Below are positions 1-18,026 of a DNA stretch of 44,221 bases, one piece after another. Source of the stretch: an uncultured Verrucomicrobia subdivision 3 bacterium (GTDB lineage: Bacteria > Verrucomicrobiota > Verrucomicrobiia > Limisphaerales > UBA11358); assembly GCA_903918885.1 (NCBI GenBank), contig CAIXFY010000022.1, positions 1 to 44,221 of the forward strand, in the 5' to 3' direction. Each line of letters starts with the position of its first letter. Within the stretch, counting starts at the first letter, position 1. The notes under the pieces were generated by a model, which saw nothing but the letters and a program-made list of their open reading frames with translations, did not search any database and had not been told where the DNA came from. A program made the translations under genes and the position numbers.

Positions 1-3000
1 AACCAAACGGCGTCGCGGTGAACAGCGGAATGAAACCGTATTCCGAACCCATGCGGTCTTCCGACTTTACGCCGACGTAATAAATCTGACCGTGCGTGGA
101 CGCGGTGGAATAAACAAATTCCACTCCGCCCTGCCCCAGCGCCGCGCCGTTGAACACGCCCGGACTGGCCACACCAGAAAGACAATTGGCAATCGTCACC
201 GGATTCAAATTCGTCAGCCCTGGATCGGTGCTGACATACAAATCAATGTCCGCCTCCGGCCGCGTGGCGTCCGCCGTGCTGTCCGCCAGCGTGCCCATGC
301 GCGGCAGCGCAAGCGTGTAGGGATTGAAGGTGATGAACGCCGCGTTAGTCACATCCGCACTACTGCCCGCGCTGTCGAGACCATTGTTGGTCACCACATA
401 GAAATGCCACTGGTTGGTCTGGCCAATCGTGACTGCGCCGTTGGGTCCCCAAACCGTATTAGCGCCAAGCGCCAAGGTATTTGTGCCCAGCAACGGTGAA
501 CTCGCACCGACCATCTGATTCATCAACGGCGTGTTGGTGGAGACGACAAACGTGATGTTCTGATCGGTTGTCGGCTGGCTAGACACACTTTCCGTTACCG
601 AGGTGATGGCCGACGGTTCCTCGCCTTCGCCGATGCTGACCACCAGCGCATAATCCTGCACCACATTGTTCGTCTGCGCCGTGACGGCATTCACGTTCAC
701 CGCGCGACCGACAACGGTGATGGAATAACTTCCCGCCAGCAGCGGCGGCAAGAGAATTTGCTCCACGTTGTTGATGGAATCCAGATTTGGCAGCGCGTTG
801 GTGGCCGTCGGCAGGTTGTAGCCGAGCTGCGGAGAAATATCATTGCCATAGAAAACCTCGCCGGTGTCTAAGTTGGTGATGACGAGGTCAAGATTGTTGA
901 CCAGCTTGATGGCCGCGTTCGGATTGCCGGGCGGATCCGTCCACACCAGCGTCGCCTGCAATTGGTAATACTGCGCGAAGCTGCTGGCATCGACCGTGAC
1001 GAGATAAGTATGGCTATCGCCGGTGGCCAGCGCAGTCGCCGGATTCTGATCTGCAAAAAACCACGGCGAAGGACTCGTGCCGTTCGGGAGGACACTTAAA
1101 TTGGTTGTCGTCAGCGGCAGCGAATTGCTGATGTTCGCCAGCCCCCAGCCCTGATAGTTGACGCCGTTGGTCAGCGCCAGCGAATAACTACCCACCGTCC
1201 GCGCGCCGTTGATGAGCATCGCTTTCAAAAGCGCCGGACTGGGCGCGACGTGCAGCGTGTTGGTGAAATAACCTTGCATCAAAGCCAACATGCCTGACAC
1301 CTCCGCCGCCGACATGCTCGTGCCAGATTCGTAACGATAATACGGACCAAGGTCGTGGTCGTCCATCCCCAGCAACACCGCATTGATGTCGCTCAAATTA
1401 TTCGTCGTGTAGATGGCCACCGTCACGTCGTAGTTCACCGGCACACTCGCGCTGTTGCCCACCGCAAAGTTGAAACCATTGTTCAAATATGGCGTCAGAC
1501 TGGCATCTCCCGGCATGGCAAAGTTGTCCTTTGCCGTTGAATAATCAAACGTCGATGGCAACTGTGGAAAACCCGACTGCCGCACATAAATCGGTAGGTC
1601 GGACGGAAACACCGTGGAAAATTTGTTCGCCGTGATCGTGATGGTCACTGCCACTGCGTCCGGCGGCACCGACACGCTGTAATCGACCAGCGTATTCGTG
1701 CCCACCACCTGACCGGTGTAAGTCGTTTTGGAAACATTGGTCGGATTCAAAAAAATGTTCGTATCCCACTGCTGTGAACGCGTGGAGACCACGAACGTGC
1801 CCGGCGTAATGACATCCGGCTTGAATCTTCCGTTCACACCTTCCGTGCCCACGCCCACATTGCCACGCGATGAATAATCCGCCACTTGCGTGCTGGTATC
1901 CGTCCGCGGTAGCCAATAGGGACCGGAGTTCGTCACCCCATTGACCACCGTCGACACAAGATTCGTGATGTTGCGCAACTGCTCCAGCGCGCCCACCGTG
2001 ATGACGTTCTTGGCCGTGCCGGGCGATAGCACTGTATCCCCACTGCCGCCCGCGCCGTCCACGTTGCCACCACCGTGATTGCCCGCCGAAAACACAAACA
2101 ACACCGGCTGCGAACCGGTCGTAAACGGGAGCGCATCGCGCGTCGCCGCGTCGTAACTGGAAGCCGTCAAATCGTATTCCGTGTTGCCATTGTCCCAACT
2201 GTTGTTGGAAATCAACGCACCCTGCAACGCCGCGTTGGTCTGCATCGTGTAGTCGGAATTGTTGTATTTGAGGGAAGCAATTTTGGCTAGCGGTGCCAGA
2301 CCTCGGAACTGTCCGGTCACGCCCGGCATGACCGAGCCTTGGGCGGCAGTCACGGTCGTGGATTGCGTGCCGTTGCCCGCGATGATGCCCGCCACATGCG
2401 TGCCATGCCCATCCGTGTCCACCAAATCCCCCGCCAAACCGAGAATACGCGACGCCAAATCGGGATGAATCGCATCCACGCCCGTATCATTCACCGCCAC
2501 CAAAATATTGTGTCCGTCCAGACCCAGAAAATTCGTCGTCGTCTGCGTGTCTGGTGCCAACCCCACTGTGACGCGTGATAAATCATTCGCCACCTCGCGA
2601 CTATGCACCGTTTCCAACGCCTGCACGCCGGGCAATTGCGCCAGTGCCGTCCAATCTTCCGGAGCCAGCACGCGCAGCACGGGGCCGAAAGCCGAACGAT
2701 CGCGGCCAATAATTTTTGCGCCCAACTGTTCCAGTTGCGCCTCCGTCGCTGCCGCAGACGACGCATAAAGCCCCAGATTCAAAGTCGTGCCGGGCACCAA
2801 CGGCTTTTGCTCGACAGCGCGGCCAAGCAAGGCGGGTTGCAATTTGAAATACGGCGCATACGGCAGCACCGTCTGCACCAGTGGACTCTGCGCCAGTTGC
2901 GCCGCGCCCGCCGCTGAAAGCTGGACGAGATACGCGTTGTTTGGGATGTAGGAAACAATCTCTGCGCCTGCGCCCGCAAGCAATGTGCGGAAGGACGGAT

Positions 3001-3391
3001 TGATCACGCCGCGCGCTTGGACGATGAAGGCGCCCGGTTCGCTGCCCGCTTGCAGATGTTTGGGGATGGCGAGATTTAATTTGGTGCCAGTATCCACCAG
3101 CGCGTTTTGCAATAGAATTGCGTGCGGCGTGACCGCCAGTTGACCGATGGTTTTGGTAGTGTTGGAAAGACGGTAGGCGAGCCGATCCGAGTTCGTTGGA
3201 GCCGCTGAAGTGGCCGAGGCAACGGCAACGGTTGGCGAACTATTAGCGGTTGGCAGCGCGGTGATGGCGCGGGCGGATGGCGCGGCGGATTTTTTTGCCG
3301 CTGGCAAAAGGTTTTCGCCGGACGGCCAGAACCGCCACACGAGCGCAAGCGCGACGACGCCCAGCGCTAAAATTTTAAGACGCATCTTCAT
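1..3391 (-). CDS. Secreted subtilisin-like serine protease (S8 family, KP-43-like), C-terminus cut by the window edge
   Basis: No stop codon is reached before the left edge; about 1130 codons are visible. Residues 1-22 form a hydrophobic signal or anchor (MKMRLKILALGVVALALVWR). About 275 residues of propeptide-like sequence follow. The catalytic triad is readable: Asp302 in NDTGVD, His329 in GHGTHVAG and Ser692 in GTSMSAAEVSG, with the oxyanion-hole Asn in VFVFSAGN. Downstream, ATLVWTDPPG and KLVNNLDLVIT match the beta-barrel domain that follows the catalytic domain in KP-43-type subtilases. The distance from KPDV (residue 524) to Ser692 is far longer than usual and holds an extra beta-rich segment. 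The start is ATG 3391; the ATG at 3385 is an alternative because it lies 6 bases from a GATAAT box. The gene lies 93 bases downstream of the giant pilin-like gene on the same strand, so it may be an exported client of that machinery (inference). Confidence 0.9.
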   Translation of the reverse strand, partial: MKMRLKILALGVVALALVWRFWPSGENLLPAAKKSAAPSARAITALPTANSSPTVAVASATSAAPTNSDRLAYRLSNTTKTIGQLAVTPHAILLQNALVDTGTKLNLAIPKHLQAGSEPGAFIVQARGVINPSFRTLLAGAGAEIVSYIPNNAYLVQLSAAGAAQLAQSPLVQTVLPYAPYFKLQPALLGRAVEQKPLVPGTTLNLGLYASSAAATEAQLEQLGAKIIGRDRSAFGPVLRVLAPEDWTALAQLPGVQALETVHSREVANDLSRVTVGLAPDTQTTTNFLGLDGHNILVAVNDTGVDAIHPDLASRILGLAGDLVDTDGHGTHVAGIIAGNGTQSTTVTAAQGSVMPGVTGQFRGLAPLAKIASLKYNNSDYTMQTNAALQGALISNNSWDNGNTEYDLTASSYDAATRDALPFTTGSQPVLFVFSAGNHGGGNVDGAGGSGDTVLSPGTAKNVITVGALEQLRNITNLVSTVVNGVTNSGPYWLPRTDTSTQVADYSSRGNVGVGTEGVNGRFKPDVITPGTFVVSTRSQQWDTNIFLNPTNVSKTTYTGQVVGTNTLVDYSVSVPPDAVAVTITITANKFSTVFPSDLPIYVRQSGFPQLPSTFDYSTAKDNFAMPGDASLTPYLNNGFNFAVGNSASVPVNYDVTVAIYTTNNLSDINAVLLGMDDHDLGPYYRYESGTSMSAAEVSGMLALMQGYFTNTLHVAPSPALLKAMLINGARTVGSYSLALTNGVNYQGWGLANISNSLPLTTTNLSVLPNGTSPSPWFFADQNPATALATGDSHTYLVTVDASSFAQYYQLQATLVWTDPPGNPNAAIKLVNNLDLVITNLDTGEVFYGNDISPQLGYNLPTATNALPNLDSINNVEQILLPPLLAGSYSITVVGRAVNVNAVTAQTNNVVQDYALVVSIGEGEEPSAITSVTESVSSQPTTDQNITFVVSTNTPLMNQMVGASSPLLGTNTLALGANTVWGPNGAVTIGQTNQWHFYVVTNNGLDSAGSSADVTNAAFITFNPYTLALPRMGTLADSTADATRPEADIDLYVSTDPGLTNLNPVTIANCLSGVASPGVFNGAALGQGGVEFVYSTASTHGQIYYVGVKSEDRMGSEYGFIPLFTATPFG

Positions 3392-3420: not shown

Positions 3421-3453
3421 CGGCGGTTCAGACCGAGTGCCAGACTTCTCAAA

Positions 3454-3488
3454 CCACCAGCTCCCAACTTCCAATTTCCAAAATTCAA
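3454..3488. repeat. Degenerate heptanucleotide repeat after the giant pilin-like gene
   Basis: Five successive 7-base units read CCACCAG, CTCCCAA, CTTCCAA, TTTCCAA and AATTCAA on the plus strand. The last unit contains the TGA stop of the gene that ends at 3485. The pattern is like the short tandem heptanucleotide repeats (STRR) known from cyanobacteria. Confidence 0.6.
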
Positions 3489-6400
3489 TTCGGCGGCAGC
3501 ACGTTGTAACTTTCCACCGTGGCCGAGTAATTCGTGACATTGTTGACAACCTTCGCATCCAGCCGGATGACCGCGCGGGCGGCACTCTCCGCCATGATCT
3601 GGTAATTGGTGACTATGCCGAATAAACCCGCGCCGGAACTGGTCACCACGCTGTCTTTGGCTGGTCGCAGCGACTGGCCGTAGCAATAAACCACATAGCG
3701 CGGCGAACTGCTGACGCGCAACAAGCCGAGTGCCTGCTGCGGCAACCATTCGTAAACCTCGTCGCTAATGCCTTTTTGCGCATAGTTCAAATTGAGAAAC
3801 GGGGATCTATCCGAAAGTGCAGATACATTCAAAATATCACCAACATGAGTGAATACTCCCGATGAAAACATGTTGGCATTCGTGCGCGCGGCATTGATGC
3901 CATTGGCTCCGTTCAAAATCTGCCATAGTTGAGAATTAGCCGTATCCACGCCCGCCGGATTGAGGTTATACCAAGTGGTGGACGGGCGAATCGTGTAAGA
4001 CGCCTGTGGATTCACCGCATTATTGGAAAGCACAACCATGCCACCAAACAACGCGGACCACGCCGCCAGATTCTTCTGGTTGACCGAAAGTGTGCCGTGA
4101 GCGGCGTTGTCGTTGAACCGTGTGGTGAACAAATCGAACAAGATTTGATCTTGCAGCGGGGACGCGTTGGTCGCGTCGAAATAATTTTGATTTCCAGTCC
4201 AAGTTGGCCATGTCAAATAGCCAGCAGCGTCTTGTAGAACATTGGTTGCCTTTAGATAAACCGTTTGCCACGGCGTGCCCCGATGGACACGGCCAATCCA
4301 GCCAATCGTCGGATACAGGTTCGTGGGGAAATCCCAATTCTCCGGACACCAGACTAGAGAGTCTTTGAACGCAGTGTTATACGCAGCAGAATCCACATTC
4401 GCCTTGCTTTGCATTTGTTTGCTCCACCCCCACGGTTGATAACGATCACCGACAGAACCCAGAGACGTGGGAGGCAAAGTGAGTTTGTCGCTATTATTCC
4501 AACCTATCGTCCCGGGATCTACATAAGCTAGGTCGCTCCCCATATAGTGCACCAAAGGATCATTCGCTTGCCACACTGCATGATAATAAACCGACCTTGT
4601 AGGCGTGTAAGGAGCCTGCACGACATATTCACCATTTAGGTAAACTTGTTGGTTGTATTGAAAACTGGGCTTGAAGAAACCATCAAAAAAGATCTTCTCG
4701 TCAGCGGGCGTTGAAGAAATTGATGCTGGCATTTGGGGTGGTCTTATCCAGTCCTTTGGATTTGGCGCACTATAGCCAGGCGATCCTCTTGAAACTAAAA
4801 TCTGATCCACAATCCCAAAGGGTGGCAACAGAGATGGCGGTTGATAGGCATTGGTGCTCCACATATAACCCTGCGCAGAATTCTGCGGATAATCCGGGTC
4901 AGCCAGCACTTGGTTGACATTTGTGTGGTCAATCGGTCCACGCAATTGGACGTAATCAATCACTTTGTTACCGTCGAGAATAAATGCTTGCAACGAATTG
5001 GTAATTGAAAGCCCAAGCACTCCCTGATGATCCAAACCCCAAAGCGGCTGATTGGTTTCCCAGGTCTGGCCGCCTGAACTGGGAACCAAATAACCTGTGC
5101 TTAACCGATAGATAGATTCCGGCAACGAGTTAAACGTCCAATTGACAGAATAAAATGAATAGGCATTGGGATTCGGAGCCGCGAAACCGGGTATCGTGTT
5201 ACCGGTTCCGACTCCCCATTTTGACCCCGACCAAGTAGTGATGTTTGTGGTGTAGATAAAATTGGTAGTGCTGACAAAAGGCGATGACGGTTGAAACTGA
5301 AATCCATTCGGAAAAATCTCGTTGGTCAGTGATATTTGAATCGTGTCCGAACCATAAACCGTCACCGGATGGGGATAAGTATTGGAATATGAGTTCCAGA
5401 AAGAAATCCCCAGATTGTTGGTCATGCTCATCACATACATCTGGTTGGTTTTGTAAATCGTGGTAGCGTCTAAATTCGTGTTATTGCGGCTGACCTCCGC
5501 CTTACGCGTCACCTGCAAAAGGTTGTTCATATAAAGTTGATTGAAACTTGGGATATTTTTCTTTGCCCCGATAATCCAAGGCACGCCATAGACGTTGACG
5601 AAAACATTGTTGGCCGTCGGCAGCAACACTTGCGAAGAATCAAACGCGGTCCCTAATTGAACGTCACCAATGCCGGTAACGGTGTCAATGTTGGTGTAGC
5701 CGGCAACGTAGAGATTGCCTAACGTGTCCCGCGTAAATTTCGGCCGGAACACAGAGGGATAAAAACTGTTCGTCGAGGCGTCATACAGATTCGCCGCGAG
5801 CTGGAGCACGCGGTTGACGGCGGGCGAATAGACAAAGTTGCCGTTCACCTGCACCGGAATGTTGGCGATGCCAAAAGCCGGCACCATGTTCGTGCCCAGC
5901 AGCGCATTCGTAAAACCGTAGCCCGTGTGGCGATCCACATAGCCATCGGCATAGTTCATGCCGTAATACGTCAGCAGATAATTCGACGGCCCGGCGGCAA
6001 ACCAGTTGGAGGAATAAGACCGCAACATCCGGTCGGCGGCGTTGGTGAAAAATTCCAGCGGCGACCACGCGAGCAGATTGGTCTCCATGCCGGACACGAC
6101 CGCGCCGTTGGTCATGTTCCGAAAATTCAAATTCATCTTGCCGCCGTCTGCCGAGGAATCCGTGCCGAGCTGATCGAGCAACCGGTAAAAAGTATAACGG
6201 TCGTAGGTGGAGTTGGAGGTGCCCGCCGTCGCGAGATGATAAACGAAATTGGTCGGCACAATTTTGGATGTGTCGAACAAGTCGGACGGCAGCGAGAAAA
6301 AGCGGTTGGTGTTGTCAGCACCAGCCCAAGAAATCGTGCCCGGATGGAGGTCCGCATCCGCCGACGGACTTAAATTCTCGTTGATGTTCGCGCTCGTGAA

Positions 6401-7438
6401 CTGCAGCGGGCCGTCGCTGTAGGCGTCAATATTGTCGTAAGGGAAGACGTTGGCTGCATTCGGGAAAATCTGCGACGCCTTGGCGAGGGAACTGTAGTCG
6501 TTGGCATAACGCCACGCCAAAATTGATTGGGCATCATAAAAGGCAACGCCGTGATTACCGCCGCCTGGATATTGGTAGTAATAGGAAGTGTTGACATTAA
6601 GTGCATCCCCAATTACCTGCCCCCACTGGTTTGTATTCAAGTCCGCCAGAAATGCCGCGAGGTTGATTTCCCACGAGCCCACACCTTGATTACGAAAAAA
6701 CGCATCTGACAAATTATTGTTCACGGTGGTAATGGCGCTATTCCCATCCATAACTTGGTTGTGAATATAATTCAAATCCAACCCATTGCCGATGGGCTGC
6801 GCCATAAACGCATAGCGCGCCACGAAATGGTTGTTGGCACTGTGCGGCTGGTCGGGCCGTTCCAGCACGCCAATCCATTCCGGGTCGCCGACTTGGAATG
6901 AAAAGTTGCCATTGGTAAAGCCGGTGCTGTCCACATCCGCAATCCAGCCGTTCGATTCAAACTGTCCGTTGCGGTTCGCATCCAGATAAAACCGGTAGTC
7001 CGCCGGGCCGTTGTTGTTCGTGATGATATAGACCGGCGCCCGCGGAAGGATGAACAGATTCGTCAGGTCGCCCAAATCACCGAAAGTCAGCGGCAGATAA
7101 TTCGTCGAGACCAACAAATGATAATCGTAAGCCGCCGTGTTGGTCGCAAAGATGCTGGCCGCAATCTGTGCCTGCGCCGCCGCGAGCGCGGAGTCCGCCG
7201 CCAGCCGCGCAACCGCCGTGTCCGTGGTGGTGGCCACCGCGCTGCGTTCGCGCCGCGAGAGCGCCAGAAACGCCACCGCCATGATGAGTGTGACCGACAG
7301 CATGATGAGCGTGATGACCAGCGCTATGCCGCGCTCGCGGCGAGCGGGAGCTGGGAGATAGCAGATAGGAGATAGGCCGGGGGCAATTTTTCTTGCTCCT
7401 GACTTCTGACTTCTGACTTCTGACTTCTGGGTTTTCAT
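3485..7438 (-). CDS. Giant pilin-headed protein, resembles Verru_Chthon cassette protein A / PilX-GspK-like
   Basis: The protein has 1317 residues. A single hydrophobic stretch at about residues 37-60 (RGIALVITLIMLSVTLIMAV) is followed by a basic patch and an Ala-rich amphipathic helix, as in PilX or GspK N-termini. The remaining ~1200 residues are rich in Asn, Thr, Tyr and Trp, have no motif I recognise, and look extracellular. Start ATG 7438 overlaps the stop of the upstream pseudopilin gene as ATGA, which supports this start even though the first ~35 residues are encoded by heptanucleotide repeats. Length, N-terminus and neighbours match what I recall of 'Verru_Chthon cassette protein A', a family named from Verrucomicrobium and Chthoniobacter and without known function. 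Codons 4200-5700 look more AT-rich than the ends, by eye. A tip or surface-display role is inference. Confidence 0.8.
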   Translation of the reverse strand: MKTQKSEVRSQKSGARKIAPGLSPICYLPAPARRERGIALVITLIMLSVTLIMAVAFLALSRRERSAVATTTDTAVARLAADSALAAAQAQIAASIFATNTAAYDYHLLVSTNYLPLTFGDLGDLTNLFILPRAPVYIITNNNGPADYRFYLDANRNGQFESNGWIADVDSTGFTNGNFSFQVGDPEWIGVLERPDQPHSANNHFVARYAFMAQPIGNGLDLNYIHNQVMDGNSAITTVNNNLSDAFFRNQGVGSWEINLAAFLADLNTNQWGQVIGDALNVNTSYYYQYPGGGNHGVAFYDAQSILAWRYANDYSSLAKASQIFPNAANVFPYDNIDAYSDGPLQFTSANINENLSPSADADLHPGTISWAGADNTNRFFSLPSDLFDTSKIVPTNFVYHLATAGTSNSTYDRYTFYRLLDQLGTDSSADGGKMNLNFRNMTNGAVVSGMETNLLAWSPLEFFTNAADRMLRSYSSNWFAAGPSNYLLTYYGMNYADGYVDRHTGYGFTNALLGTNMVPAFGIANIPVQVNGNFVYSPAVNRVLQLAANLYDASTNSFYPSVFRPKFTRDTLGNLYVAGYTNIDTVTGIGDVQLGTAFDSSQVLLPTANNVFVNVYGVPWIIGAKKNIPSFNQLYMNNLLQVTRKAEVSRNNTNLDATTIYKTNQMYVMSMTNNLGISFWNSYSNTYPHPVTVYGSDTIQISLTNEIFPNGFQFQPSSPFVSTTNFIYTTNITTWSGSKWGVGTGNTIPGFAAPNPNAYSFYSVNWTFNSLPESIYRLSTGYLVPSSGGQTWETNQPLWGLDHQGVLGLSITNSLQAFILDGNKVIDYVQLRGPIDHTNVNQVLADPDYPQNSAQGYMWSTNAYQPPSLLPPFGIVDQILVSRGSPGYSAPNPKDWIRPPQMPASISSTPADEKIFFDGFFKPSFQYNQQVYLNGEYVVQAPYTPTRSVYYHAVWQANDPLVHYMGSDLAYVDPGTIGWNNSDKLTLPPTSLGSVGDRYQPWGWSKQMQSKANVDSAAYNTAFKDSLVWCPENWDFPTNLYPTIGWIGRVHRGTPWQTVYLKATNVLQDAAGYLTWPTWTGNQNYFDATNASPLQDQILFDLFTTRFNDNAAHGTLSVNQKNLAAWSALFGGMVVLSNNAVNPQASYTIRPSTTWYNLNPAGVDTANSQLWQILNGANGINAARTNANMFSSGVFTHVGDILNVSALSDRSPFLNLNYAQKGISDEVYEWLPQQALGLLRVSSSPRYVVYCYGQSLRPAKDSVVTSSGAGLFGIVTNYQIMAESAARAVIRLDAKVVNNVTNYSATVESYNVLPPN
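7348..7429. repeat. Two heptanucleotide repeat tracts inside the 5' end of the giant pilin-like gene
   Basis: Positions 7348-7375 read GAGCTGG, GAGATAG, CAGATAG, GAGATAG. Positions 7395-7429 read GCTCCTG followed by ACTTCTG four times. Both tracts have a strict 7-base period and are translated, giving SEVRSQKS-type residues between the start codon and the membrane segment. Confidence 0.85.
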
Positions 7439-8328
7439 TGGTAGGCCGTGCGGTCAACATTCGGGATGCTCACGCGCTGACGAAACACATGGACAGCGCC
7501 GGATTGTCCCGCAAGATAATTAGATTGGGTAATTGACGGAAAGGTCAGCGATTCGGCTCGCGCCAAGACCTGATCTTCCAGCACGCCCAGTTCCAATTCC
7601 ACAGCAGCCGGAACCGCGTTGCTATACATATAAAACGCCGTCTCACCATAGGCGGATTGATTGTAATAGGGGACAAACATGGGCGCAGCGGCGGTGGGAT
7701 AAAAAGTGTTCAGCCAAAATCCGTTCTTGTCATAGGCGCGCAAAGTGAGGTGCACCACGCCGTCAATGATGTGACTCAAGGAGCTGTTGGTCCAGCGGCC
7801 ATTGAAAACCTGATTGGTGAAGTCATTGAACAACGCCCGCGGATCCGCCGTGATGTTCGTAAAACTGTAATACCGGTAAAGCGAGAACAGCGGGCTGGCG
7901 TCCGTGGCATCCACGGCGTAGCCGATGCCAATCCACCGGGTGTTTTCCCGGCTCAAACTGAAAAAATAGTTCAACACATTCGTCCGTTGGACGATTGGAT
8001 AACTTCCCGGCAGACTCTGCTGCAACGGAGAGTAAGCGTAATAAATCGGGCCGACCGTTAAATTCACCGGACCGTTGCTCGCGCCGCCGGATGGCGTCAT
8101 GTTATGGAGGTCGGTGGCAATCAAATCCATTGCCGCGCGGCTGCCTTCCAGCACGTCCGCCTGCGTGGCCGCCGCGCGAAACGCGCGCTGCGTGCTGCTG
8201 AACACCTGCATCAATGCCAGCACGATGAGCGACAGCAGCGACACCACCACCAAAACTTCCAAAAGCGTGAACGCGCCGACCGAGCGGCGGCTCACGGACA
8301 ATTTAAAATTGGAAATTGGAAATTTCAC
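7435..8328 (-). CDS. GspJ-like pseudopilin, resembles Verru_Chthon cassette protein C
   Basis: The prepilin signature GAFTLLEVLVVVSLLSLIVL puts cleavage after Ala19, with Glu at mature +5. A helix (RAFRAAATQADVLEGSRAAM) and a large periplasmic domain follow, 297 residues in all, consistent with GspJ-type minor pseudopilins. The frame is open further upstream to 8457, but GTG 8328 overlaps the stop of the upstream gene as GTGA and matches the coupling seen at neighbouring junctions. The leader (KFPISNFKLS) is encoded by a 7-base repeat. In type II secretion, minor pseudopilins I, J and K form the pseudopilus tip; the order here (I-like, J-like, giant protein) fits that role by inference. Confidence 0.8.
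   Translation of the reverse strand: MKFPISNFKLSVSRRSVGAFTLLEVLVVVSLLSLIVLALMQVFSSTQRAFRAAATQADVLEGSRAAMDLIATDLHNMTPSGGASNGPVNLTVGPIYYAYSPLQQSLPGSYPIVQRTNVLNYFFSLSRENTRWIGIGYAVDATDASPLFSLYRYYSFTNITADPRALFNDFTNQVFNGRWTNSSLSHIIDGVVHLTLRAYDKNGFWLNTFYPTAAAPMFVPYYNQSAYGETAFYMYSNAVPAAVELELGVLEDQVLARAESLTFPSITQSNYLAGQSGAVHVFRQRVSIPNVDRTAYQ
8301..8328. repeat. Heptanucleotide repeat at the start of the GspJ-like gene
   Basis: Four 7-base units, ATTTAAA, ATTGGAA, ATTGGAA and ATTTCAC, lie immediately after (in minus-strand sense) the GTG start and encode the prepilin leader peptide. Confidence 0.65.
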
Positions 8329-9083
8329 GGCACGTTGGTGAACGATTGCGACTGGTAATAAAAATAATTGAGATTCGTCTGCACTAATTGTCCGGCGACG
8401 AGCGTGCGGAACGTCTGGCGACCGCTGCCAAGGTTGCCGTTGGGGAGTTGCGGCCAAAGGAACGTGAGGCGCAATTCATGTTGGTTCGCCGCCAAATGTT
8501 TGGCAAAACCCACGAGCTTGCCACTGTTATCCGCCGCCATCGGGGCGTTAACACACAGCAAACGATAGGTGAAAGAATCTTCCACCATGATCTGATTGTT
8601 TTGCGGCGGTTTTTCCGCCGCCAATCCGTTGAGCGAACGAACGTAGGCGACGATGTGATTGCTGTAACCCTTGTTGTTCCAGTCATTATTAATCGGATAG
8701 AATTCCGGATCCGTCGTAAACTCCGGCGTGCTCAAGATGCCAATGATTTTTGCGCCGGTGTCCATCAATGACGGCGAGAAACCTTTGGTATTTATTTGTG
8801 GCGGATTGCCCGGCTTAAACAGCACCTGAAAGTTGGTGATGGCATAGACATAGTTCGTCAAATCATCCGCGCCGCGCGAGCCGCTGCGGATGGTTTCCAG
8901 CAGCATGGTGGCTTCCTGATTGATGATGGTTTCTTCGCGGTTGTCGCGCTGGGTGTTCAAGCCGATGGGCAACACGCCGATGATGGCCACGAGCGCAAAG
9001 CCAATGATGGCCAGACAAATCGCAATCTCCATCATCGTGAAGGCAGCGATCGGGCGCGCGGGTTGTGTGGCGGAAAATTTCAT
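8325..9083 (-). CDS. GspI-like pseudopilin, resembles Verru_Chthon cassette protein B
   Basis: The protein has 252 residues. The prepilin site is AA|FTMMEIAICLAIIGFALV with Ala14 at -1 and Glu at +5. The following IGVLPIGLNTQRDNREETI and an amphipathic helix (INQEATMLLETIRSG) match what I recall of Verru_Chthon protein B and, more loosely, GspI/PilV. ATG 9083 overlaps the upstream stop as ATGA, and its own stop overlaps the next start as GTGA, so translation of the set is probably coupled. It would be processed by a prepilin peptidase, which is not encoded in this window. Confidence 0.8.
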   Translation of the reverse strand: MKFSATQPARPIAAFTMMEIAICLAIIGFALVAIIGVLPIGLNTQRDNREETIINQEATMLLETIRSGSRGADDLTNYVYAITNFQVLFKPGNPPQINTKGFSPSLMDTGAKIIGILSTPEFTTDPEFYPINNDWNNKGYSNHIVAYVRSLNGLAAEKPPQNNQIMVEDSFTYRLLCVNAPMAADNSGKLVGFAKHLAANQHELRLTFLWPQLPNGNLGSGRQTFRTLVAGQLVQTNLNYFYYQSQSFTNVP

Positions 9084-9913
9084 TGCATCCTGAAATGTTG
9101 CAGCTTCGCGCGGCCGGTTTGCGGGTTGATGTCAATGACGTTGTAGGAAATGTTCGTGCTGTTGCCGGGCGGATTTTCGGTGATGTCGCTGGCGGTCAAC
9201 GGCGTCACCGGAATGGTGGGCAGCTTCGTTGTTTGGTCCACACCAAAACTCACCGTTCCCTGCGCCAGCGGAATGTAGGCGTGCTGAAAATTATTTCCGT
9301 CAGCCGTTTCCGAAATCAGCCGGCCCAAATAATCAAAGGCGATGCAAGGCAGCGACACCGCCGCCGATGACTCGGTGGGAAACGGAATTGGCGTCCGCGC
9401 AAAGCCGTAGATTTGCGTCCGTGGATTTTGCCAGTTATCAATTTGCCCTGCATTGTCCGACGTCCACTGCGGAATGGTCATGGAGTAGTTTGTCCCTTGA
9501 AATTTCGCGGCGGCGATGAACGCACCTTCCGGCAACGACTGCCAGTCGGCCAAATAATGCCAAACGTGCTGTCCCGGTTGGTCGCCAACCTTGCCGTAGG
9601 AAATGAAATTGTAGGCGGCCAGTTGCTTGTCCAACAGATTGGTGACGACAGAAGCATTGGTGGTTGTGATGAACGTCGCGAAGGAAAAATTTGTCGGCAC
9701 AAAAACCATGTAAACCGTCGTGCGCTGGCTGATGGCAAGCTGGCGCGCCCGGCCGATGTCATCCAGCAACTGCCGCGAGGCGCTGACTTGGAGGTTGGAT
9801 TTGCCGAGGTTCTTGAGCGCCGGCACGGCCAACGCAGCGAGGATGCCGAGGATCGAAATGACCACGAGCAACTCGATGAGCGTAAAGGCAAATTGGCGGC
9901 GGACGCGTTTCAC
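9080..9913 (-). CDS. GspH/FimT-like pseudopilin, resembles Verru_Chthon cassette protein D
   Basis: The protein has 277 residues with a short basic leader and prepilin site QFA|FTLIELLVVISILGILAAL (Ala9 at -1, Glu at +5). The segment VSASRQLLDDIGRARQLAIS followed by QRTTVYMVF is typical of GspH/FimT minor pseudopilins. It ends in an ATGA overlap with the GspI-like gene and starts 8 bases after the upstream GspG-like gene, so it is clearly in one operon. Beyond the N-terminal 60 residues the sequence is not recognisable. Confidence 0.82.
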   Translation of the reverse strand: MKRVRRQFAFTLIELLVVISILGILAALAVPALKNLGKSNLQVSASRQLLDDIGRARQLAISQRTTVYMVFVPTNFSFATFITTTNASVVTNLLDKQLAAYNFISYGKVGDQPGQHVWHYLADWQSLPEGAFIAAAKFQGTNYSMTIPQWTSDNAGQIDNWQNPRTQIYGFARTPIPFPTESSAAVSLPCIAFDYLGRLISETADGNNFQHAYIPLAQGTVSFGVDQTTKLPTIPVTPLTASDITENPPGNSTNISYNVIDINPQTGRAKLQHFRMQ

Positions 9914-9921
9914 AAAAAAAG

Positions 9922-10716
9922 TTACCAGCTCACGACGTTGTCTTTGTTCAAACCGACCGTGGCGTTGGCGTTAGGATCAACCTGTTTATCTGGCCCGGCG
10001 GACCAGACCATGACTTTGCCGTGGTAGAGGAAATGGTCGCCGTTGCCGTTGTTATCAACCGGATTGAAGAGGCCATTATAGCCAGCGGTTCCACTTTGCT
10101 GGGAAACATTTTTGGTCGAGTAGAAAAAATCTTTCGTGCCCTGCTCGTTGTAGCTGGAATTCATCGTGATGACGTAAGGATTACCCCACGGATCACGGTA
10201 AATGCCGTTGTTGTCCACTCCGCCCAGCGGCTGGCTACCCGTGCCCGGATCACCAGACAGTTTGGCGTTGAGATATTTTACCTGCTTGGGATTTTTTTGA
10301 TGGTTGATGTTTTGCGTCGGCAAACCGTTGGGATAGGTTGTCAAATCCATGAGGATGGCCACGACGTTGCTATTGTTGCCATAAGTCCATCCTGAATTAA
10401 TTCCCAGCCAGGTGACGCCCGTCTGCGGATTCTGAACATAACCACAGGTGAAATCATTCGTTCCAGCAAAATATTGCTCGCTACCCGCTCCCGACGTCAT
10501 GGGAAATCTTCCATAGTCGGTATCGTAGGCATTGATGGCGTTGACGAGGTCAGCCATCTCGGCCTTGGCCTTCATCTTCTTTGCTTTGTCTGGAACTTTT
10601 GCCAGCACCGGCAGCAGCATGCCCGCCAGAATGCCGATGATGGCGATGACGACGAGCAGTTCGGTGAGGGTAAAACCTCCGCGCGAAAGGCGGGGTGATG
10701 AAAGTTTAGTTTTCAT
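9922..10716 (-). CDS. GspG-like major pseudopilin
   Basis: The protein has 264 residues. Cleavage is predicted at GG|FTLTELLVVIAIIGILAGM (Gly14, Glu at +5). The helix KKMKAKAEMADLVNAINAY with DTDYGRFP and the later DPWGNPYVITM match GspG-type pseudopilins, which carry a conserved W-GNPY loop. The C-terminus (KVMVWSAGPDKQVDPN) resembles the calcium-binding end of GspG (SAGPDG). It is longer than classic GspG (about 145 residues), which is usual for this phylum. A 66-base gap separates it from the upstream pilin gene. Confidence 0.85.
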   Translation of the reverse strand: MKTKLSSPRLSRGGFTLTELLVVIAIIGILAGMLLPVLAKVPDKAKKMKAKAEMADLVNAINAYDTDYGRFPMTSGAGSEQYFAGTNDFTCGYVQNPQTGVTWLGINSGWTYGNNSNVVAILMDLTTYPNGLPTQNINHQKNPKQVKYLNAKLSGDPGTGSQPLGGVDNNGIYRDPWGNPYVITMNSSYNEQGTKDFFYSTKNVSQQSGTAGYNGLFNPVDNNGNGDHFLYHGKVMVWSAGPDKQVDPNANATVGLNKDNVVSW

Positions 10717-10782: not shown

Positions 10783-11496
10783 TTATGGCACGGAGGTGTC
10801 GTTGATTGGCACTTGCCGGGTCCAGTTGCAAATCAAGTGGTTCTTTCCATTAACACTCAACTGCACCCACAAGTCATAAGAACCGGGATTTTTGATGCCG
10901 GGATACCGGTGGCGAATGGGGTTCAGGCCAGAGGTAATCAAGGGCTGGTAACTATCATCCGGCCCACCAACGGAAGTCACGAGAACGGTGGTGGCGACTC
11001 CATTGTTGGTCACAAGATTATACACTTGCTTCTGCCGTATGCCGGTCAGGAAATTTTTCGCCTTGATGTCATCGTCACCGCTGCCTTTGGTGCAATTAAT
11101 AAAACCACTAACGCCATAGGCACTCGGCACATCGACCGCCTTGATGCTGGTGCTGCCGTCCAGCGTTTGAAAACCCGGAGCGCCACCAACGGTCGCCGCT
11201 TCCATACCGGACAATTCATAGTAGAGTTGGGGGAGCAGTTGAAAGAACGCAGCGTTCGTATTCATATTACTCGGCGGATAAAAACCAAACTTGGCCTTAT
11301 AATTTTCCAGTGCGGTTTCGATGAATTCCAGTTCGCCACGCGCGACTTTTTTGTATTGGACCGCCTTGACGGATCTCAACACGGGTATGGTGAAGCCCGC
11401 CAGCACGCCGATTATAGAGATGACGACGAGCAGCTCGACCAGCGTGAAGCCTAGGCCACCGCCGGTTTTCAATTTAGTATTTCCGTTTGTTCTCAT
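10783..11496 (-). CDS. Second GspG-like prepilin
   Basis: The prepilin site is LG|FTLVELLVVISIIGVLAGF (Gly16, Glu at +5). The helix KKVARGELEFIETALENYKA followed by KFGFYPPSN is characteristic of GspG-type pilins, and the end (KNPGSYDLWVQLSV) corresponds to the usual C-terminal loop. The frame is open to 11529, but ATG 11496 overlaps the antitoxin stop as ATGA, and this start gives a normal leader. The protein therefore has 237 residues. Its translational coupling to an antitoxin gene is odd for a structural pilin. Confidence 0.82.
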   Translation of the reverse strand: MRTNGNTKLKTGGGLGFTLVELLVVISIIGVLAGFTIPVLRSVKAVQYKKVARGELEFIETALENYKAKFGFYPPSNMNTNAAFFQLLPQLYYELSGMEAATVGGAPGFQTLDGSTSIKAVDVPSAYGVSGFINCTKGSGDDDIKAKNFLTGIRQKQVYNLVTNNGVATTVLVTSVGGPDDSYQPLITSGLNPIRHRYPGIKNPGSYDLWVQLSVNGKNHLICNWTRQVPINDTSVP

Positions 11497-11762
11497 TTCA
11501 ATTCCTGTTCCATGCGTTCGCTCAACCATTGCTTGATCATGCTCTGGTAATTCAAAAACCGCATCCGCGCCAGCCGCTTGATGCGTGCCAGCATCCGCGG
11601 GTCAATCCGCAGCGTGATGGTCACCGACTCGGATGATTCCATGCTGCCGGAGACCGCCGCCTCCATCAGCCGCAGGTCGGGACGGTTCTCCAACCAAAAA
11701 CTGGCCTCAGCCAATTCGCTGTCGAACAGTGGCACGTCTTCCCAGTTGGCAAAAGTTTGCAC
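11493..11762 (-). CDS. CopG/ribbon-helix-helix antitoxin (BrnA-like)
   Basis: The protein has 89 residues and starts with GTG 15 bases after the toxin stop. The C-terminal half, SVTITLRIDPRMLARIKRLA then RMRFLNYQSMIKQWLSERM, is a ribbon-helix-helix fold of the CopG-antitoxin type: a beta strand (TITLRI), two helices and the conserved YQS-IK-WL motif. The N-terminal half (NWEDVPLFDSELAEASFW) would be the toxin-binding part. Antitoxins of this kind neutralise the toxin and repress their own promoter. Its stop overlaps the start of a pilin gene (ATGA), so pilin translation may depend on antitoxin translation. Confidence 0.82.
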   Translation of the reverse strand: MQTFANWEDVPLFDSELAEASFWLENRPDLRLMEAAVSGSMESSESVTITLRIDPRMLARIKRLARMRFLNYQSMIKQWLSERMEQELK

Positions 11763-12167: not shown

Positions 12168-13484
12168 TTAGTCTTTTCCGCCTTTTGAACCGCCCTCACC
12201 GCTCAAGTTGGTGATCATGGCAATCAGGGGCAAAAACATCGCGATCACGATACTGCCGACGATTACCGCCAGAAAAACAATCATGATCGGTTCCAAAAGC
12301 GAAGTCATCGCCTCGACGGCATTATCCACTTCTTCGTCGTAGTTATCAGCGATCTTCAGGAGCATTTCGGGCAACGCGCCAGTTTGTTCACCGACGTCCA
12401 CCATGCTGACGACCATCGGCGGGAATACCCGCGACGCTTCGAGCGGCGCAGTAATGGTTTCACCTTCCTTCACGCTTTCATGAATGGAATTGACGGCGTT
12501 GGCGATGATGACATTGCCGGCGGTCTCCTTGACGATGGTCAACGCCTGCAAAATCGGCACGCCGCTGCTGACGAGCGTGCCTAGCGTGCGCGTAAAACGA
12601 GAGATCGAAACTTTGGTCACCACACCACCGGTCGGCGGCATGACGAGTTTTACTTTGTCCCAAACATGGCGGCCAAATTTCGTTTTGATGAACAGCAAAA
12701 AAATGACCACGACCACCGCCACCGCGCCCATGGTGCCGAGAATGTTGTTTTTAATCGTGTCGCTGAGCCACAAAACAAACAATGTGAATCCCGGCATCGT
12801 GATGCCCATGCCGCTGAACACATCCTTGAACTTGGGAACTACGAAACACATCAGCAAAATCATGATGCCGACGGCGACAATCAAAACAGCGACGGGATAG
12901 AATAACGCCGCTTTGACCTTACCCTTGATCTTCTGCGCCTTTTCAGAAAACTCCGCGAGACGCTTCAAGACGACTTCCAGCACACCGCCTAATTCGCCGG
13001 CCTTAACCATGTTGACGAACAGCCGGTTAAAAACTTTCGGATGTTGCGCGAGCGCCTCGGAAAAAGTGCTGCCCCCTTCGATGGCGGTGGCAAGTTCGGC
13101 CAGAATTCTTTTCAGGTTCGCATTGCGCTCCTGTTTTTCCAAAACACGCAAACCCCGCAGCAAAGGCAAACCGGCGTCCACCAGCGTCGCCAACTGGCGA
13201 GTAAAAGTCGTCAACACCTTGGGCTTCACCCCCCCGCCAAGACCGGGAATCTTGATGTTGAGATTCATGCCGCCTTTTTTCCCACCCGCTTTCGGTTTGG
13301 CGGTGGGTTTGCCCTTGGTCTTTTTGGCGGCGGATTTTTCTTCCTTGTCTGCCTCGACAATTTTCGTCGGAAACAACTGCATTTCCTTCACGCGGCCGAT
13401 GGCCTCGTTCTGGCTGCCGGCTTCAATCGTGCCCTTGGATTCACTGCCACGAGCATCAAGAGCTACATAATTATATCTAGGCAT
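12168..13484 (-). CDS. GspF/PilC inner-membrane platform protein
   Basis: The protein has 438 residues. It starts with the usual MPRYNYVALDARG segment and has two GspF domains: TTFTRQLATLVDAGLPLLRG at about 93-112, and a second repeat with SRFTRTLGTLVSSGVPILQA. Hydrophobic segments include LFYPVAVLIVAVGIMILLMC, the segment around MGAVAVVVVIFLLF, and the C-terminal PIMIVFLAVIVGSIVIAMFL. It anchors the assembly ATPase at the inner membrane. A Lys-rich stretch (about 45-72, EEKSAAKKTKGKPTAKPKAG) between the N-terminus and the first domain is an unusual insert. It lies 12 bases downstream of the ATPase gene. Confidence 0.95.
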   Translation of the reverse strand: MPRYNYVALDARGSESKGTIEAGSQNEAIGRVKEMQLFPTKIVEADKEEKSAAKKTKGKPTAKPKAGGKKGGMNLNIKIPGLGGGVKPKVLTTFTRQLATLVDAGLPLLRGLRVLEKQERNANLKRILAELATAIEGGSTFSEALAQHPKVFNRLFVNMVKAGELGGVLEVVLKRLAEFSEKAQKIKGKVKAALFYPVAVLIVAVGIMILLMCFVVPKFKDVFSGMGITMPGFTLFVLWLSDTIKNNILGTMGAVAVVVVIFLLFIKTKFGRHVWDKVKLVMPPTGGVVTKVSISRFTRTLGTLVSSGVPILQALTIVKETAGNVIIANAVNSIHESVKEGETITAPLEASRVFPPMVVSMVDVGEQTGALPEMLLKIADNYDEEVDNAVEAMTSLLEPIMIVFLAVIVGSIVIAMFLPLIAMITNLSGEGGSKGGKD

Positions 13485-13496: not shown

Positions 13497-15197
13497 TTAG
13501 GTGTATTTGACGACTTCTTCGATGGTTGTATCACCATCAAAAATGCTGCGCAAGCCGTCTTCGCGCAGCGTGACCATGCCGAGTTCCACGGCTTTCTGGC
13601 GCACCACCACAGTCGGCGCGCGTTCGTTGATGAGATTGCGAATGGCATCAGAGACCACCAGCAATTCGTAAATTCCTTTGCGCCCCTTGTAGCCAGTGTC
13701 GTTGCAAGTCGAGCAGCCGCGACCGTAATGAAACATCTTGTCGCCCAAATCATGTGGTGAAAGGCCGAGCAACGCGAGCTGCTGTTCGGTCGGCTCAAAC
13801 GGCGTCCGGCAATTTTTGCAAACTGTCCGCACCAGCCGCTGACCCAGCACCGCCATCAGCGTCGTCGAAATCAAAAACGGTTCCACCCCCATGTCCACGA
13901 GACGCGTCACCGCGCCGGGCGAATCGTTCGTGTGCAGCGTGCTCAAGACCAAGTGCCCCGTCAGCGAGGCCTGAATGGAAATCTGCGCCGTCTGCAAATC
14001 GCGCATTTCTCCGACCATGATGATGTCCGGATCCTGCCGCAAAAAGGATTTCAGCGCCTTGGCAAACGTCATACCCAGCGCCTCGTTCACCGCTACCTGC
14101 ATGATGCCTTCGATGTCGAATTCCACCGGGTCTTCCGCCGTGAGTAGCTTGGAATCAATCGCATTCACACGGCGCAGACAGGAATACAGCGTCGTCGTCT
14201 TGCCGCAACCGGTCGGGCCAGTGACAACGAAAATTCCGTTCGGCCGCTGGATGACTTCCGAAACGAAATCAAAAACGTATTTGGGAAAACCCAGCGATTC
14301 GAGTTCCAGGTTTACCGAGCCGCGATCCAACACGCGCAGCACGATGGATTCGCCGAAGGCCGTCGGCAGGGTGCTCACGCGCAGGTCAATCTGCTTGCCT
14401 GCCACTGTCACATTGATACGCCCGTCTTGGGGCATGCGCTTTTCCGAAATATTCAAGCCCGCCATGACCTTGATGCGCGAAGCCACCGGCAGCGCGAGGT
14501 GCTTCGGCGGCGGCGCCATTTCGTAAAGCGCACCGTCCACGCGGTAGCGAATCTGGAAGCTCGACTCAAATGGCTCAAAGTGAATATCGCTCGCCCGATC
14601 CTGCACCGCTTGCTGCAATACCAGATTTACAAACTTGACGATGGGAATCTCATTCGCCAACGCCTCGGCTGCCGCCGCATCATCGCCGGCAGCGGTGATT
14701 TCCTTGGTGATTTTTTCGTCGCCCAGTTCTTTCAGGATTTCCGCGAAGCTTTCATTCTCCTCTTGACCGTAAAAACGTTCGATGCCGCGCTGAATGTCGC
14801 CAGGGTCGGACACCACAATCAACACATCGCGCTTCGCCGCGAACTGGATTTCATCCGCCACCTGCGGATTCAGCGGATCAGCCAAAGCCACCTGCAACAT
14901 GCCGTCCTGAAAACCCACCGGCAGACATTTATACATCTGCGCCACCTTCGCCGGAATCAGACTCAACACATCTTTGGGAATCTCCCGATCCTTCAATGAC
15001 ACCACCGCCGTGCCCAGCGACGACGCCACCACCTGCAGGATGGCGTCCAGTTTCATGATGCCAAAATCCTGCAGCACCTGCATGGCTGGCGCGGCATTGC
15101 GCTTCAGCTCCGCCAGCACTTCCTCGTATTGCAGGTCGTCAATCAGACCCTGTCCGTGGATGAGCGATAGCAGTGGATTGGAAATATCTTCAGACAT
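13497..15197 (-). CDS. Type II secretion / type IV pilus assembly ATPase (GspE/PilB), second copy
   Basis: The protein has 566 residues. The N-terminal MshEN-like domain is followed by the N2 domain ([20 protein letters not shown]), Walker [11 protein letters not shown] at about 327, an Asp box ([15 protein letters not shown]), Walker B ([13 protein letters not shown]) and the His box ([12 protein letters not shown]). Zinc-binding CxxC pairs are present (CKNCRTPF and [11 protein letters not shown]). It drives pseudopilus or pilus extension from the cytoplasm with GspF as partner, whose gene follows directly. It is a clear paralogue of the ATPase encoded at 16323-18026, with pilT between them. 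Confidence 0.95.
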
Positions 15198-15206
15198 GAA
15201 ACAAAA

Positions 15207-16316
15207 TTATTTCTTTTTGCCGCCGCCCTTGTCGACCGCCTGCGCCAAATCCATTTCCTGCAACTTGGCCATGATGGTTGTTGGATCCTGCGACTTGTTG
15301 ATGACTTCCTCGCGGGCAATCATCCCCTTCTCATATTTTTCAATCAGGCACGCATCCAACGTCACCATGCCGTATTTCATGCCCGTCTGGATGTCCGACT
15401 GGATGCGGAACGTTTTGTTATCGCGGATGAGCGCGGCGATGGACGGCGTGTTAATCATGATCTCAAATGCCGCCACGCGGCCCGGCTTGTCCACACGCGG
15501 AATCAACAACTGCGAAATCACCGCCTGCAACACCGTCGAAAGCTGGATGCGCACCATTTCCTGCTGGTTCGAGGGAAACGCGTTCGTCAAACGATCAATC
15601 GTCTTCGCCGCGCCCGTCGTGTGCAGCGTGCCAAAGACCAAGTGGCCTGTTTCCGCCGCCGTGATGGCCGCCTCGATGGTTTCCAAGTCGCGCATTTCGC
15701 CGACCAGAATCATGTCCGGATCTTGGCGCAGCGCGCGGCGCAACGCCTCGGCAAAATTCGGCACATCCACATGCACTTCACGCTGCGTGATGAGCGCCTT
15801 CTTCTGCTTGTGGTAATATTCAATTGGATCTTCCACCGTGATGAGATGCACTTCCTCGCGCGTCTCATTGACGAGGTTCAGCAGCGACGCGAGCGTCGTG
15901 GTCTTGCCGGAACCCGTCGGGCCGGTGACGAGAATCAGCCCGCGCGGCTTGAACAAAAGTTCCTTCACCGATTCCGGCAAACCAATTTGCTCAAACGTGA
16001 GCATCTTGCTCGGAATCTGCCGCAGCACCATGCCGAAATTTCCCTTTTCCTTGAACACGCTCACGCGGAAGCGCGCTGCCTCGCCAAACGCAAACGCAAA
16101 ATCCGCGCCGCCGCGTTCACGCACCTGCTGGATGTGTTCCTCGCTCGTGATGGAGCGCATCAATTCCTCCGAAGTCTCCGGCGTCAGCGGCGGGCCTTCC
16201 ACGCGGTGCAGCGTGCCGTGAACGCGGATGGTCGGCGATGTGCCGACGCGCGTGTGCAAGTCAGAAGCGCCTTCCGACACCACCAACTGCAACAAGTCTG
16301 ACATGGCGTATGACAT
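15207..16316 (-). CDS. pilT: PilT-type twitching/retraction ATPase
   Basis: The protein has 369 residues. It begins with the short PilT N-terminus (DLLQLVVSEGASDLHTRVG) rather than an MshEN domain. Walker A GPTGSGKTTT is at about 132, Walker B at QDPDMILVGEMRDLET, and the His box is GHLVFGTLHTTGA. The C-terminal SIAALIRDNKTFRIQS corresponds to the AIRNLIRE region needed for retraction in PilT. There is no zinc tetracysteine motif, as expected for PilT. Its presence suggests a retractable fibre rather than a pure type II secretion system. ATG 16316 is 6 bases after the upstream stop; ATG 16304 is an alternative start. Confidence 0.93.
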   Translation of the reverse strand: MSYAMSDLLQLVVSEGASDLHTRVGTSPTIRVHGTLHRVEGPPLTPETSEELMRSITSEEHIQQVRERGGADFAFAFGEAARFRVSVFKEKGNFGMVLRQIPSKMLTFEQIGLPESVKELLFKPRGLILVTGPTGSGKTTTLASLLNLVNETREEVHLITVEDPIEYYHKQKKALITQREVHVDVPNFAEALRRALRQDPDMILVGEMRDLETIEAAITAAETGHLVFGTLHTTGAAKTIDRLTNAFPSNQQEMVRIQLSTVLQAVISQLLIPRVDKPGRVAAFEIMINTPSIAALIRDNKTFRIQSDIQTGMKYGMVTLDACLIEKYEKGMIAREEVINKSQDPTTIMAKLQEMDLAQAVDKGGGKKK

Positions 16317-16322
16317 AAAAAA

Positions 16323-18026
16323 TCAAGCTTCGTCTCCAACCGTCGCGCGGATTACTTCGTCTGGCGTGGTCAAACCAGCCAACACCTTGCGGATGCCATC
16401 TTCGCGCAGCGTGCGCATGCCCATTTCGCGGGCGCGCTGGCGCAACACGGTCGTCGGCACCTGATCGTAAATCAATTTCCGAGCCTCGTCTTCAATCACA
16501 AAAATTTCAAAAATGCCAAAGCGCCCACGGTTGCCGGTGTTATTGCAATTCTGACAGCCGCGGCCTTTCTGGATGTTGGCATTTTTCACATCCTCCATTG
16601 TCAGTCCCAACGCGCGCATTTCCGCTTCGGTCGGCGTGTAGGGCGCCATGCACTTTTTGCAAATCTTGCGGACGAGCCGTTGCGCCATCAGACAGCGCGT
16701 GGACGACGCTACCAAAAACGGTTTCACGCCAATATCCACGAGACGCGTGACGGCACCGGGCGCGTCGTTCGTGTGCAAAGTGGAAAAAACCAAATGGCCG
16801 GTGAGCGACGCGTTGATGGCGATGGAGCCGGTTTCGATATCGCGAATTTCCCCGATCATCACGATGTTCGGTGCCTGACGCAGAATCGCGCGCAAGGCCG
16901 TCGCAAACGTGAAGCCAACTTGTTCATGCACCTGCACCTGGTTGATGCCCGACAAAACATATTCCACCGGGTCTTCCACGGTGATGATTTTGCGGTCAGG
17001 GCGGTTGATGAAATTCAGGCACGAATAAAGCGTCGTGGTTTTTCCGGAACCCGTCGGGCCGGTCACCAATAAAATTCCATCTGGCAGCGCAATAATCCGC
17101 TCGAAGGTCTGTTGGTCGTCCGTCAAGAAACCCAATTCCGGCAGACCGAGGCGGAGACCTTCCTTGTCCAAAATACGCATCACGATGCTTTCGCCGTGGT
17201 TCGTGGGCAAACAGGAAACACGCAAATCAATTAGCTTGTTGCCGATTTTCGTCTGGATGCGTCCGTCCTGCGGCACGCGATGCTCGGAAATGACCATGCC
17301 CGCCTGGATTTTCAGACGCGCGATGACCGGTGCCTGCAGGCGTTTCGGCGGCGATTTCATCTCCTGCAACATGCCGTCAATTCGGTAGCGCAGTCGAAAG
17401 CGTTTTTCCAGCGGCTCAAGATGGATATCTGACGCGCGCAGTTTGAACGCGTCCACGACAATTTGATTCACCAACCGGATGAGCGGCGCATCGGTTTCCA
17501 GTTCACCACCATCTTCGACGACGACTTCCTGATTGCTGACAGCAAGCTCGTCAATGACGTCTTTGAAGACGCCAGCGTCCATGGATTTTTTCTCGCCGCC
17601 GTAGTAGCTGGCCAGTGCTGCTTCGATGTCCGAATCGGAGGCCACGCGTGGCTCAATTTCTGCGTTGAGCAAATGCTGCAATGTATCCAGCGTGTTCAAG
17701 TCGGACGGATCGGCGATGGCAATGCCGACTTTGCCTTCAGCTTTGAAAACGGGGATGACGCGGTATTTTTTGGCGATGTCGCGCGAGACGAGCGAAATGA
17801 CTTCGTCGTCTATCTTCATGTTCGTGAGATGAACGACTTCTGCGCCGAACTGCGCAGCCTTGGCCTGTGTTACATCGCCGGGGCGGATGATTTTGTTGGC
17901 TACCAAAAAATCCACGACGCCCACGCCGGCGGCGCTGGCTTCCTCGCGAGCCTTGGCTACCTGCTCGGCGTCGGTGAAGCCCAGGTCAACCAGCAGGTCC
18001 AATAAATAATCGTCTTTTTCTGCCAC
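16323..18026 (-). CDS. Type IV pilus assembly ATPase (PilB/GspE), first copy
   Basis: The protein has 567 residues and a GTG start. An MshEN domain (LLVDLGFTDAEQVAKA and an AQFGAEVVHL region) is followed by ASDIHLEPLEKRFRLRYRID, Walker A GPTGSGKTTT at about 323, TVEDPVEYVLSGINQVQV, IVMIGEIRDIETG and GHLVFSTLHTNDAPGA. The zinc motifs are CKKCMAPY and CQNCNNTGNRG. It powers fibre extension. It is the first gene of the minus-strand operon; no convincing promoter was found in the 123 bases upstream (18027-18149). Confidence 0.95.
   Translation of the reverse strand: MAEKDDYLLDLLVDLGFTDAEQVAKAREEASAAGVGVVDFLVANKIIRPGDVTQAKAAQFGAEVVHLTNMKIDDEVISLVSRDIAKKYRVIPVFKAEGKVGIAIADPSDLNTLDTLQHLLNAEIEPRVASDSDIEAALASYYGGEKKSMDAGVFKDVIDELAVSNQEVVVEDGGELETDAPLIRLVNQIVVDAFKLRASDIHLEPLEKRFRLRYRIDGMLQEMKSPPKRLQAPVIARLKIQAGMVISEHRVPQDGRIQTKIGNKLIDLRVSCLPTNHGESIVMRILDKEGLRLGLPELGFLTDDQQTFERIIALPDGILLVTGPTGSGKTTTLYSCLNFINRPDRKIITVEDPVEYVLSGINQVQVHEQVGFTFATALRAILRQAPNIVMIGEIRDIETGSIAINASLTGHLVFSTLHTNDAPGAVTRLVDIGVKPFLVASSTRCLMAQRLVRKICKKCMAPYTPTEAEMRALGLTMEDVKNANIQKGRGCQNCNNTGNRGRFGIFEIFVIEDEARKLIYDQVPTTVLRQRAREMGMRTLREDGIRKVLAGLTTPDEVIRATVGDEA

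Follow-up and report, generated by a model that had tools for sequence, protein, structure and literature searches.

A pilus/secretion locus with a giant GspK-like pilin and a closely linked subtilase in the order Limisphaerales

The genome of an uncultured Verrucomicrobia subdivision 3 (Limisphaerales) bacterium carries on one strand the motor genes of a type II secretion or type IVa pilus system, five prepilin genes, the gene of a giant pilin-headed protein (A) and that of a giant subtilase (S8), and within this order the last two are almost never found apart. The locus lies at positions 1 to 18026 of a stretch of 44221 bp (the window), which is the whole of contig C22 in an assembly of 2.46 Mb that is 91% complete; the order is one from soil and water. 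Our data lean, by a small margin over doubt, towards export or carriage of S8 by a hybrid type II secretion system (T2SS)/type IVa filament equipped with a retraction ATPase and, at its tip, a giant GspK-like subunit. The prepilin cassette is a distant relative of the Verru_Chthon families, which are named without a function, and here such a relative is accompanied almost invariably by one enzyme and often by a motor of its own; an orphan cassette therefore becomes a testable hypothesis of export or of tip function. All the genes that a sequence-only reading of the window had listed (two PilB/GspE ATPases, PilT, GspF, five prepilins, a 1317-residue pilin-headed protein and a subtilase) were recovered on the minus strand, in the following order:

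16323..18026, minus strand: E1, PilB/GspE-type extension ATPase with an N-terminal MshEN domain (PF00437, E 2e-133; PF05157, E 4e-21)
15207..16316, minus strand: T, PilT/PilU-family retraction ATPase (TIGR01420, 443.8 bits against a cut-off of 319.1)
13497..15197, minus strand: E2, second PilB/GspE-type ATPase (TIGR02538 and TIGR02533, just below cut-offs)
12168..13484, minus strand: F, GspF/PilC inner-membrane platform protein (PF00482, E 2.5e-65)
10783..11529, minus strand: p1, GspG-like prepilin with Glu5 (TIGR01710, E 1e-11, below cut-off; PF07963 over cut-off)
9922..10716, minus strand: p2, GspG/PilA-like prepilin, candidate major subunit (PF08334 and PF07963 over cut-off)
9080..9913, minus strand: p3, GspH/Verru_Chthon D-like prepilin (TIGR02596, E 2.9e-9, below cut-off)
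8325..9083, minus strand: p4, GspI/PilV/Verru_Chthon B-like prepilin (TIGR02598, E 4.6e-4, below cut-off)
7435..8328, minus strand: p5, GspJ/PilW/Verru_Chthon C-like prepilin (TIGR01711, E 2.5e-8, and TIGR02599, E 2.1e-7, below cut-offs)
3485..7438, minus strand: A, giant (1317-residue) GspK/PilX-like pilin-headed protein without Glu5, probable tip subunit (TIGR02600, first 57 positions, E 2e-5)
2..3391, minus strand: S8, giant subtilase cut by the contig end, with an N-terminal hydrophobic segment, a prodomain-like region and a catalytic domain (PF00082, E 2e-35)

The strongest evidence for a functional unit came from the distribution of these genes. A was found with a protein query in 53 of 59 relatives searched, and the order p1-p2-p3-p4-p5-A-S8 recurs around the long A genes that were read, with occasional unrecognised members. 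A scan of genome contigs with an A profile gave 80 loci, 68 of them with at least 1 kb downstream, and S8 directly followed A in 67 of these 68, even where the motor lies elsewhere; the linkage holds across about 20 families in which A is 30-40% identical. The 68 loci are not independent trials, because all share ancestry and some lie on contigs already read around A genes. The sole exception, L184, has no S8 beside A, which was confirmed by tblastn. Furthermore, S8 orthologues (E<=1e-30) were present in 22 of 24 sampled genomes of the order and in none of 117 others of the class. Among 195 genomes of the phylum the A profile found only the window's own genome, a survey that mainly tests outsiders because no other member of the order was visible in that list.

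Conservation of the whole neighbourhood, from gspE-pilT-gspE-gspF through the cassette to the subtilase, had been put forward as a check of a dedicated system, and an unlinked subtilase and motor as its refutation. Where enough flanking sequence was available, the motor adjoins the cassette in 41 of 47 loci, and it is unlinked in several families, so the motor part of the prediction held often and not always, while the link of subtilase and cassette stands. The apparent loss in G004, G010 and G024 is explained by fragmentation, because each of the contigs stops within the motor or early pilins or shortly beyond them. The spacing described as tight was indeed so within the motor block (6, 9 and 12 bp) and within the cassette (8 bp and three 4-bp overlaps), but 638 bp lie between gspF and the first pilin. 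The start of p5 is the GTG at 8328, in a GTGA overlap with the TGA of p4, and not the TTG at 8457. Because the whole arrangement is conserved across the order, it is not a product of chance. It could, nonetheless, be inherited operon structure with no mechanical tie, an ordinary type IV pilus or T2SS with which S8 is merely co-expressed, as the origin of all 67 linked loci in one order (hence their non-independence) and the lack of S8 at L184 would allow. We consider this improbable, since the linkage persists at such divergence of A, also where the motor has moved away, and since S8 and A track each other more closely than either tracks the motor. In pairwise distances over 44 loci S8 tracks A best (r 0.85; partial r 0.51 after F, E2 and p3), a correlation that may be inflated by shared descent and by the length of both proteins.

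S8 is a peptidase S8 by both tests, as PF00082 matches over its cut-off and the Asp-His-Ser triad is present, and the catalytic residues Asp302, His329, Asn396 and Ser692 are invariant in 79 of 79 sequences. The earlier size of '1130+' residues is not the length of S8: the gene is cut by the contig end, and complete relatives mostly have 1900-3300 residues. A short hydrophobic segment is kept at the N-terminus, and the four long relatives scanned contain P-domains (4/4) and a PPC domain (2/4). Several members of the order (G145:C131, G006:C99, G079:C5, G050:C186, G046:C9, G041:C175, G132:C22 and G159:C3) have a second subtilase of about 1700-1760 residues that is 33-38% identical to S8 and has a locus of its own.

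S8 proteins close with a module of ~85 residues for which no name was found in Pfam or NCBIfam; it is seen in L131, L125, L145 and other S8 C-termini, and its consensus ends in FYRL.LP. It occurs at 21 places in the window's genome (E<=0.001; for example C75:34487 and C23:8928), and in 17 of the 18 stretches where it was recovered (20 were read) it ends 0-7 residues before the stop codon. In the class sample (E<=1e-5) it was present in 16/16 genomes of the order and in 12/78 others, and so is not confined to the order. The module looks like a sorting or anchoring domain, for which it is a candidate. Parts that the locus lacks are also found elsewhere in the genome. The window has no secretin, as had been noted, and the genome has two on other contigs (C75 and C27). 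Contig C75 holds, at 27361-49689, PilM, N/O/P-like genes, a secretin and a second set of I/J/K-like pilins (PilM and the secretin were assigned by Pfam, N/O/P by position and sequence); four module copies lie within ~22 kb around this cluster, one of them directly after the secretin, and the cluster is unlinked to the pilus/S8 locus. The second secretin is accompanied by another PilM, an arrangement that we take to be like Amuc_1098-1101. In addition, the genome has one prepilin peptidase gene.

A shared terminal domain also brings to mind processing, as in the type IX secretion system a protease cleaves C-terminal domains. S8 could thus be an envelope protease that matures A, other pilins or the proteins with the shared domain; its co-variation with A, the presence of the domain at the end of about 20 proteins and the encoding of a protease with an intact active site beside filament genes would agree with such a role. 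We hold it to be unlikely all the same, given that S8 bears the shared domain too and that prepilin peptidase alone suffices in related systems.

The features of A point to the filament tip. It starts with a prepilin-like segment in which residue +5 is never Glu (0 of 101 sequences read; Ile in 81, Val in 14, Thr in 5 and Leu in 1). GspK and PilX also lack Glu5 and are proposed to sit at the tip, in contact with T2SS substrates or PilY1 (PMC7541494), and on these grounds A is a probable tip subunit of its filament. Among 19 relatives of A, 12 matched TIGR02600 and 6 the GspK model (E<=0.01); the GspK model is weak on the window's A (E 0.044) and reaches E 9.9e-6 on the best relative. Residues 120-1317 gave a fair AlphaFold model (pLDDT 79.5, pTM 0.82), in which a small beta part and a helical part are followed by a large beta domain, more helices and a C-terminus of beta structure. 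Shorter A paralogues of 815-972 residues (L077-L080) exist in several genomes without S8 or the cassette alongside.

A probable tip subunit followed by a large, probably exported protein also raises the possibility that S8 is never released and is displayed on A in PilY1's place, making a proteolytic tip that can be retracted and that serves in feeding on protein-rich surfaces or in gripping them. The site of S8, after a PilX/GspK-like gene, is the neighbourhood where minor-pilin operons carry pilY1, and in Myxococcus xanthus every cluster holds pilY1 together with fimU, pilV, pilW and pilX (PMC7541494). The presence of PilT within the operon and the unusual size of A are in line with display, and Tad tips with large pilins serve against prey (PMC12075869). 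On the other hand, domain scans of the window's S8 and of long relatives found no PilY1 domain and no scanned window protein matched PilY1, S8 standing after the PilX-like gene instead; the occurrence of its C-terminal domain in many other proteins speaks for a general route. Display thus seems to us a possibility of some weight, although a minor one.

The relationship of the cassette to Verru_Chthon had been expected to appear as matches to TIGR02596, TIGR02598, TIGR02599 and TIGR02600. p3, p4, p5 and A did match families D, B, C and A, respectively, but all matches were below cut-off and mainly N-terminal (best bits against cut-offs: A, 23.1/332.3; B, 20.4/51.4; C, 30.5/256.5; D, 37.3/70). 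The same pairs recurred in relatives, for p3 with TIGR02596, p4 with TIGR02598 and p5 with TIGR02599 in 15/15 each and for A with TIGR02600 in the 12/19 given above. Four adjacent pilin-headed genes are thus present with one relative per family, and by sequence Verru_Chthon D, B, C and A are the most consistent named relatives of p3, p4, p5 and A. A profile comparison of A with true Verru_Chthon A aligned 69 N-terminal columns (E 5e-9); their bodies gave no more than weak collinear matches (P 0.013 and 0.27), and A has an order-specific body. The Verru_Chthon A model scored over its cut-off in 19/141 genomes of the class, all outside the order. True loci read B-C-A-D or A-B-C-D in most readable cases and have neither motor genes nor S8, unlike the D-B-C-A order of our locus. 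Full membership is therefore ruled out by cut-offs and gene order, and a distant relationship is kept. The neighbours of true Verru_Chthon loci are often large proteins of other kinds whose N-termini resemble signals or whose ends resemble PEP-CTERM (a small sample, judged by eye), which would fit a cassette-plus-cargo logic. In the literature searched, no paper contained Verru_Chthon as a phrase, and none combined Verrucomicrobi-, subtilase, type II secretion and pilin.

Among the motor proteins, the matches to PilB and PilC are close to, but below, the equivalog cut-offs, and PilT is over its own. E1 scored 621.7 bits with TIGR02538 and 593 bits with TIGR02533 and E2 614.8 and 607.7 bits, all just below cut-off, and F scored 402.5 bits with TIGR02120 (cut-off 424). 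PilT is 73-96% identical in relatives. Among the prepilins, the p2 profile matched solved GspG and PilA major pilins (E to 6e-15), and nearly all p1-p5 read keep Glu5. The genome G048 (L063) has the cassette and S8 and no close PilT orthologue (best 38% identity); retraction by the PilT of the locus may therefore be dispensable. Five further PilT-family ATPase genes are present in the window's genome, on contigs C61, C56, C29 and C20.

In the export or carrying model that we favour, E1 and/or E2 would act with F to assemble a filament of the GspG-like p1 and p2, primed and capped at the tip by p3, p4, p5 and A as GspH-, I-, J- and K-like subunits, and PilT would retract it. Prepilin peptidase, PilM/N/O/P-like alignment proteins and a secretin would be borrowed from elsewhere in the genome. 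S8 would be the conserved client: an N-terminal signal or anchor of its own would take it to the periplasm, and the large head of A would engage it at the tip; it could then be pushed through or held at the outer membrane, giving a secreted protease or one held at the tip or the surface. Gene content and order, the almost constant linkage of S8 to A, the intact catalytic residues and the other components in the genome are observed; the tip position of A, its contact with S8, the direction of transport and the final place of S8 are what we infer here. More speculatively, and as a suggestion that we would put forward with considerable reserve, this could be an order-specific machine for secretion or display: a giant tip subunit on a retractable filament would handle an active protease that can reach ~3300 residues, and the C-terminal domain common to about 20 exported proteins of each genome would be the sorting signal for this or a sister filament.

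Such a hybrid shares features with several known systems. As in a T2SS, the locus keeps the order GspE-F-G-H-I-J-K (H to K assigned by sub-cut-off matches and order), has a K-like subunit without Glu5 and has a large exported enzyme as probable client; in contrast to a T2SS, gspC, D, L and M are absent between 1 and 18026, PilT, two GspE-type ATPases and two GspG-like subunits are present, and the K-like subunit is about four times the usual size. As in type IVa pili, PilB, PilC and PilT occur, and the minor-pilin block ends in a PilX-like subunit followed by a large exported protein, but this is a subtilase instead of PilY1, and PilM/N/O/P and the secretin are unlinked. The locus shares with the Verru_Chthon cassette one relative each of A-D and a pilin-headed giant of ~1300 residues as A, and differs from it in having about one copy per genome instead of many and in the attached motor, S8 and two GspG-like genes. 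Lastly, S8 is several times larger than the subtilases of Dichelobacter nodosus. Optimal secretion of these enzymes (AprV2, AprV5 and BprV) needs type IV fimbriae (PMC3480457, PMC4471445). These enzymes can be secreted without their C-terminal extension, whereas here the protease gene is linked to a tip-type subunit. If the favoured model is true, a tie between subtilases and a retractable type IV system would be seen for the second time, now in a phylum far from the first.

Several observations weigh against this model. The motor lies on another contig in G036, G041, G046, G038, G039, G050 and G054, and an intact E-T-E-F block on another contig is followed by unrelated genes, with no pilin directly next to it; strict dedication of the motor to the cassette is ruled out by such separation in several families. 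Because the terminal module is common to about 20 other proteins, S8 is not necessarily the only client and might do without the filament altogether. Furthermore, a second AlphaFold model, of A residues 36-600 (the head and first domains), was weaker (pTM 0.61), and neither model matched a solved structure in the PDB at E<=0.001, so that structure comparison did not support a GspK fold. Searching PDB sequences by profile yielded nothing but a spurious match. With no fold match, the GspK-like label of A therefore rests on sequence, gene order and Glu5.

In addition, a small minus-strand gene (11778-12059) stands between gspF and the first pilin. By eye it may be BrnT-like, although Pfam gave no match, and it recurs in relatives at 36-65% identity.

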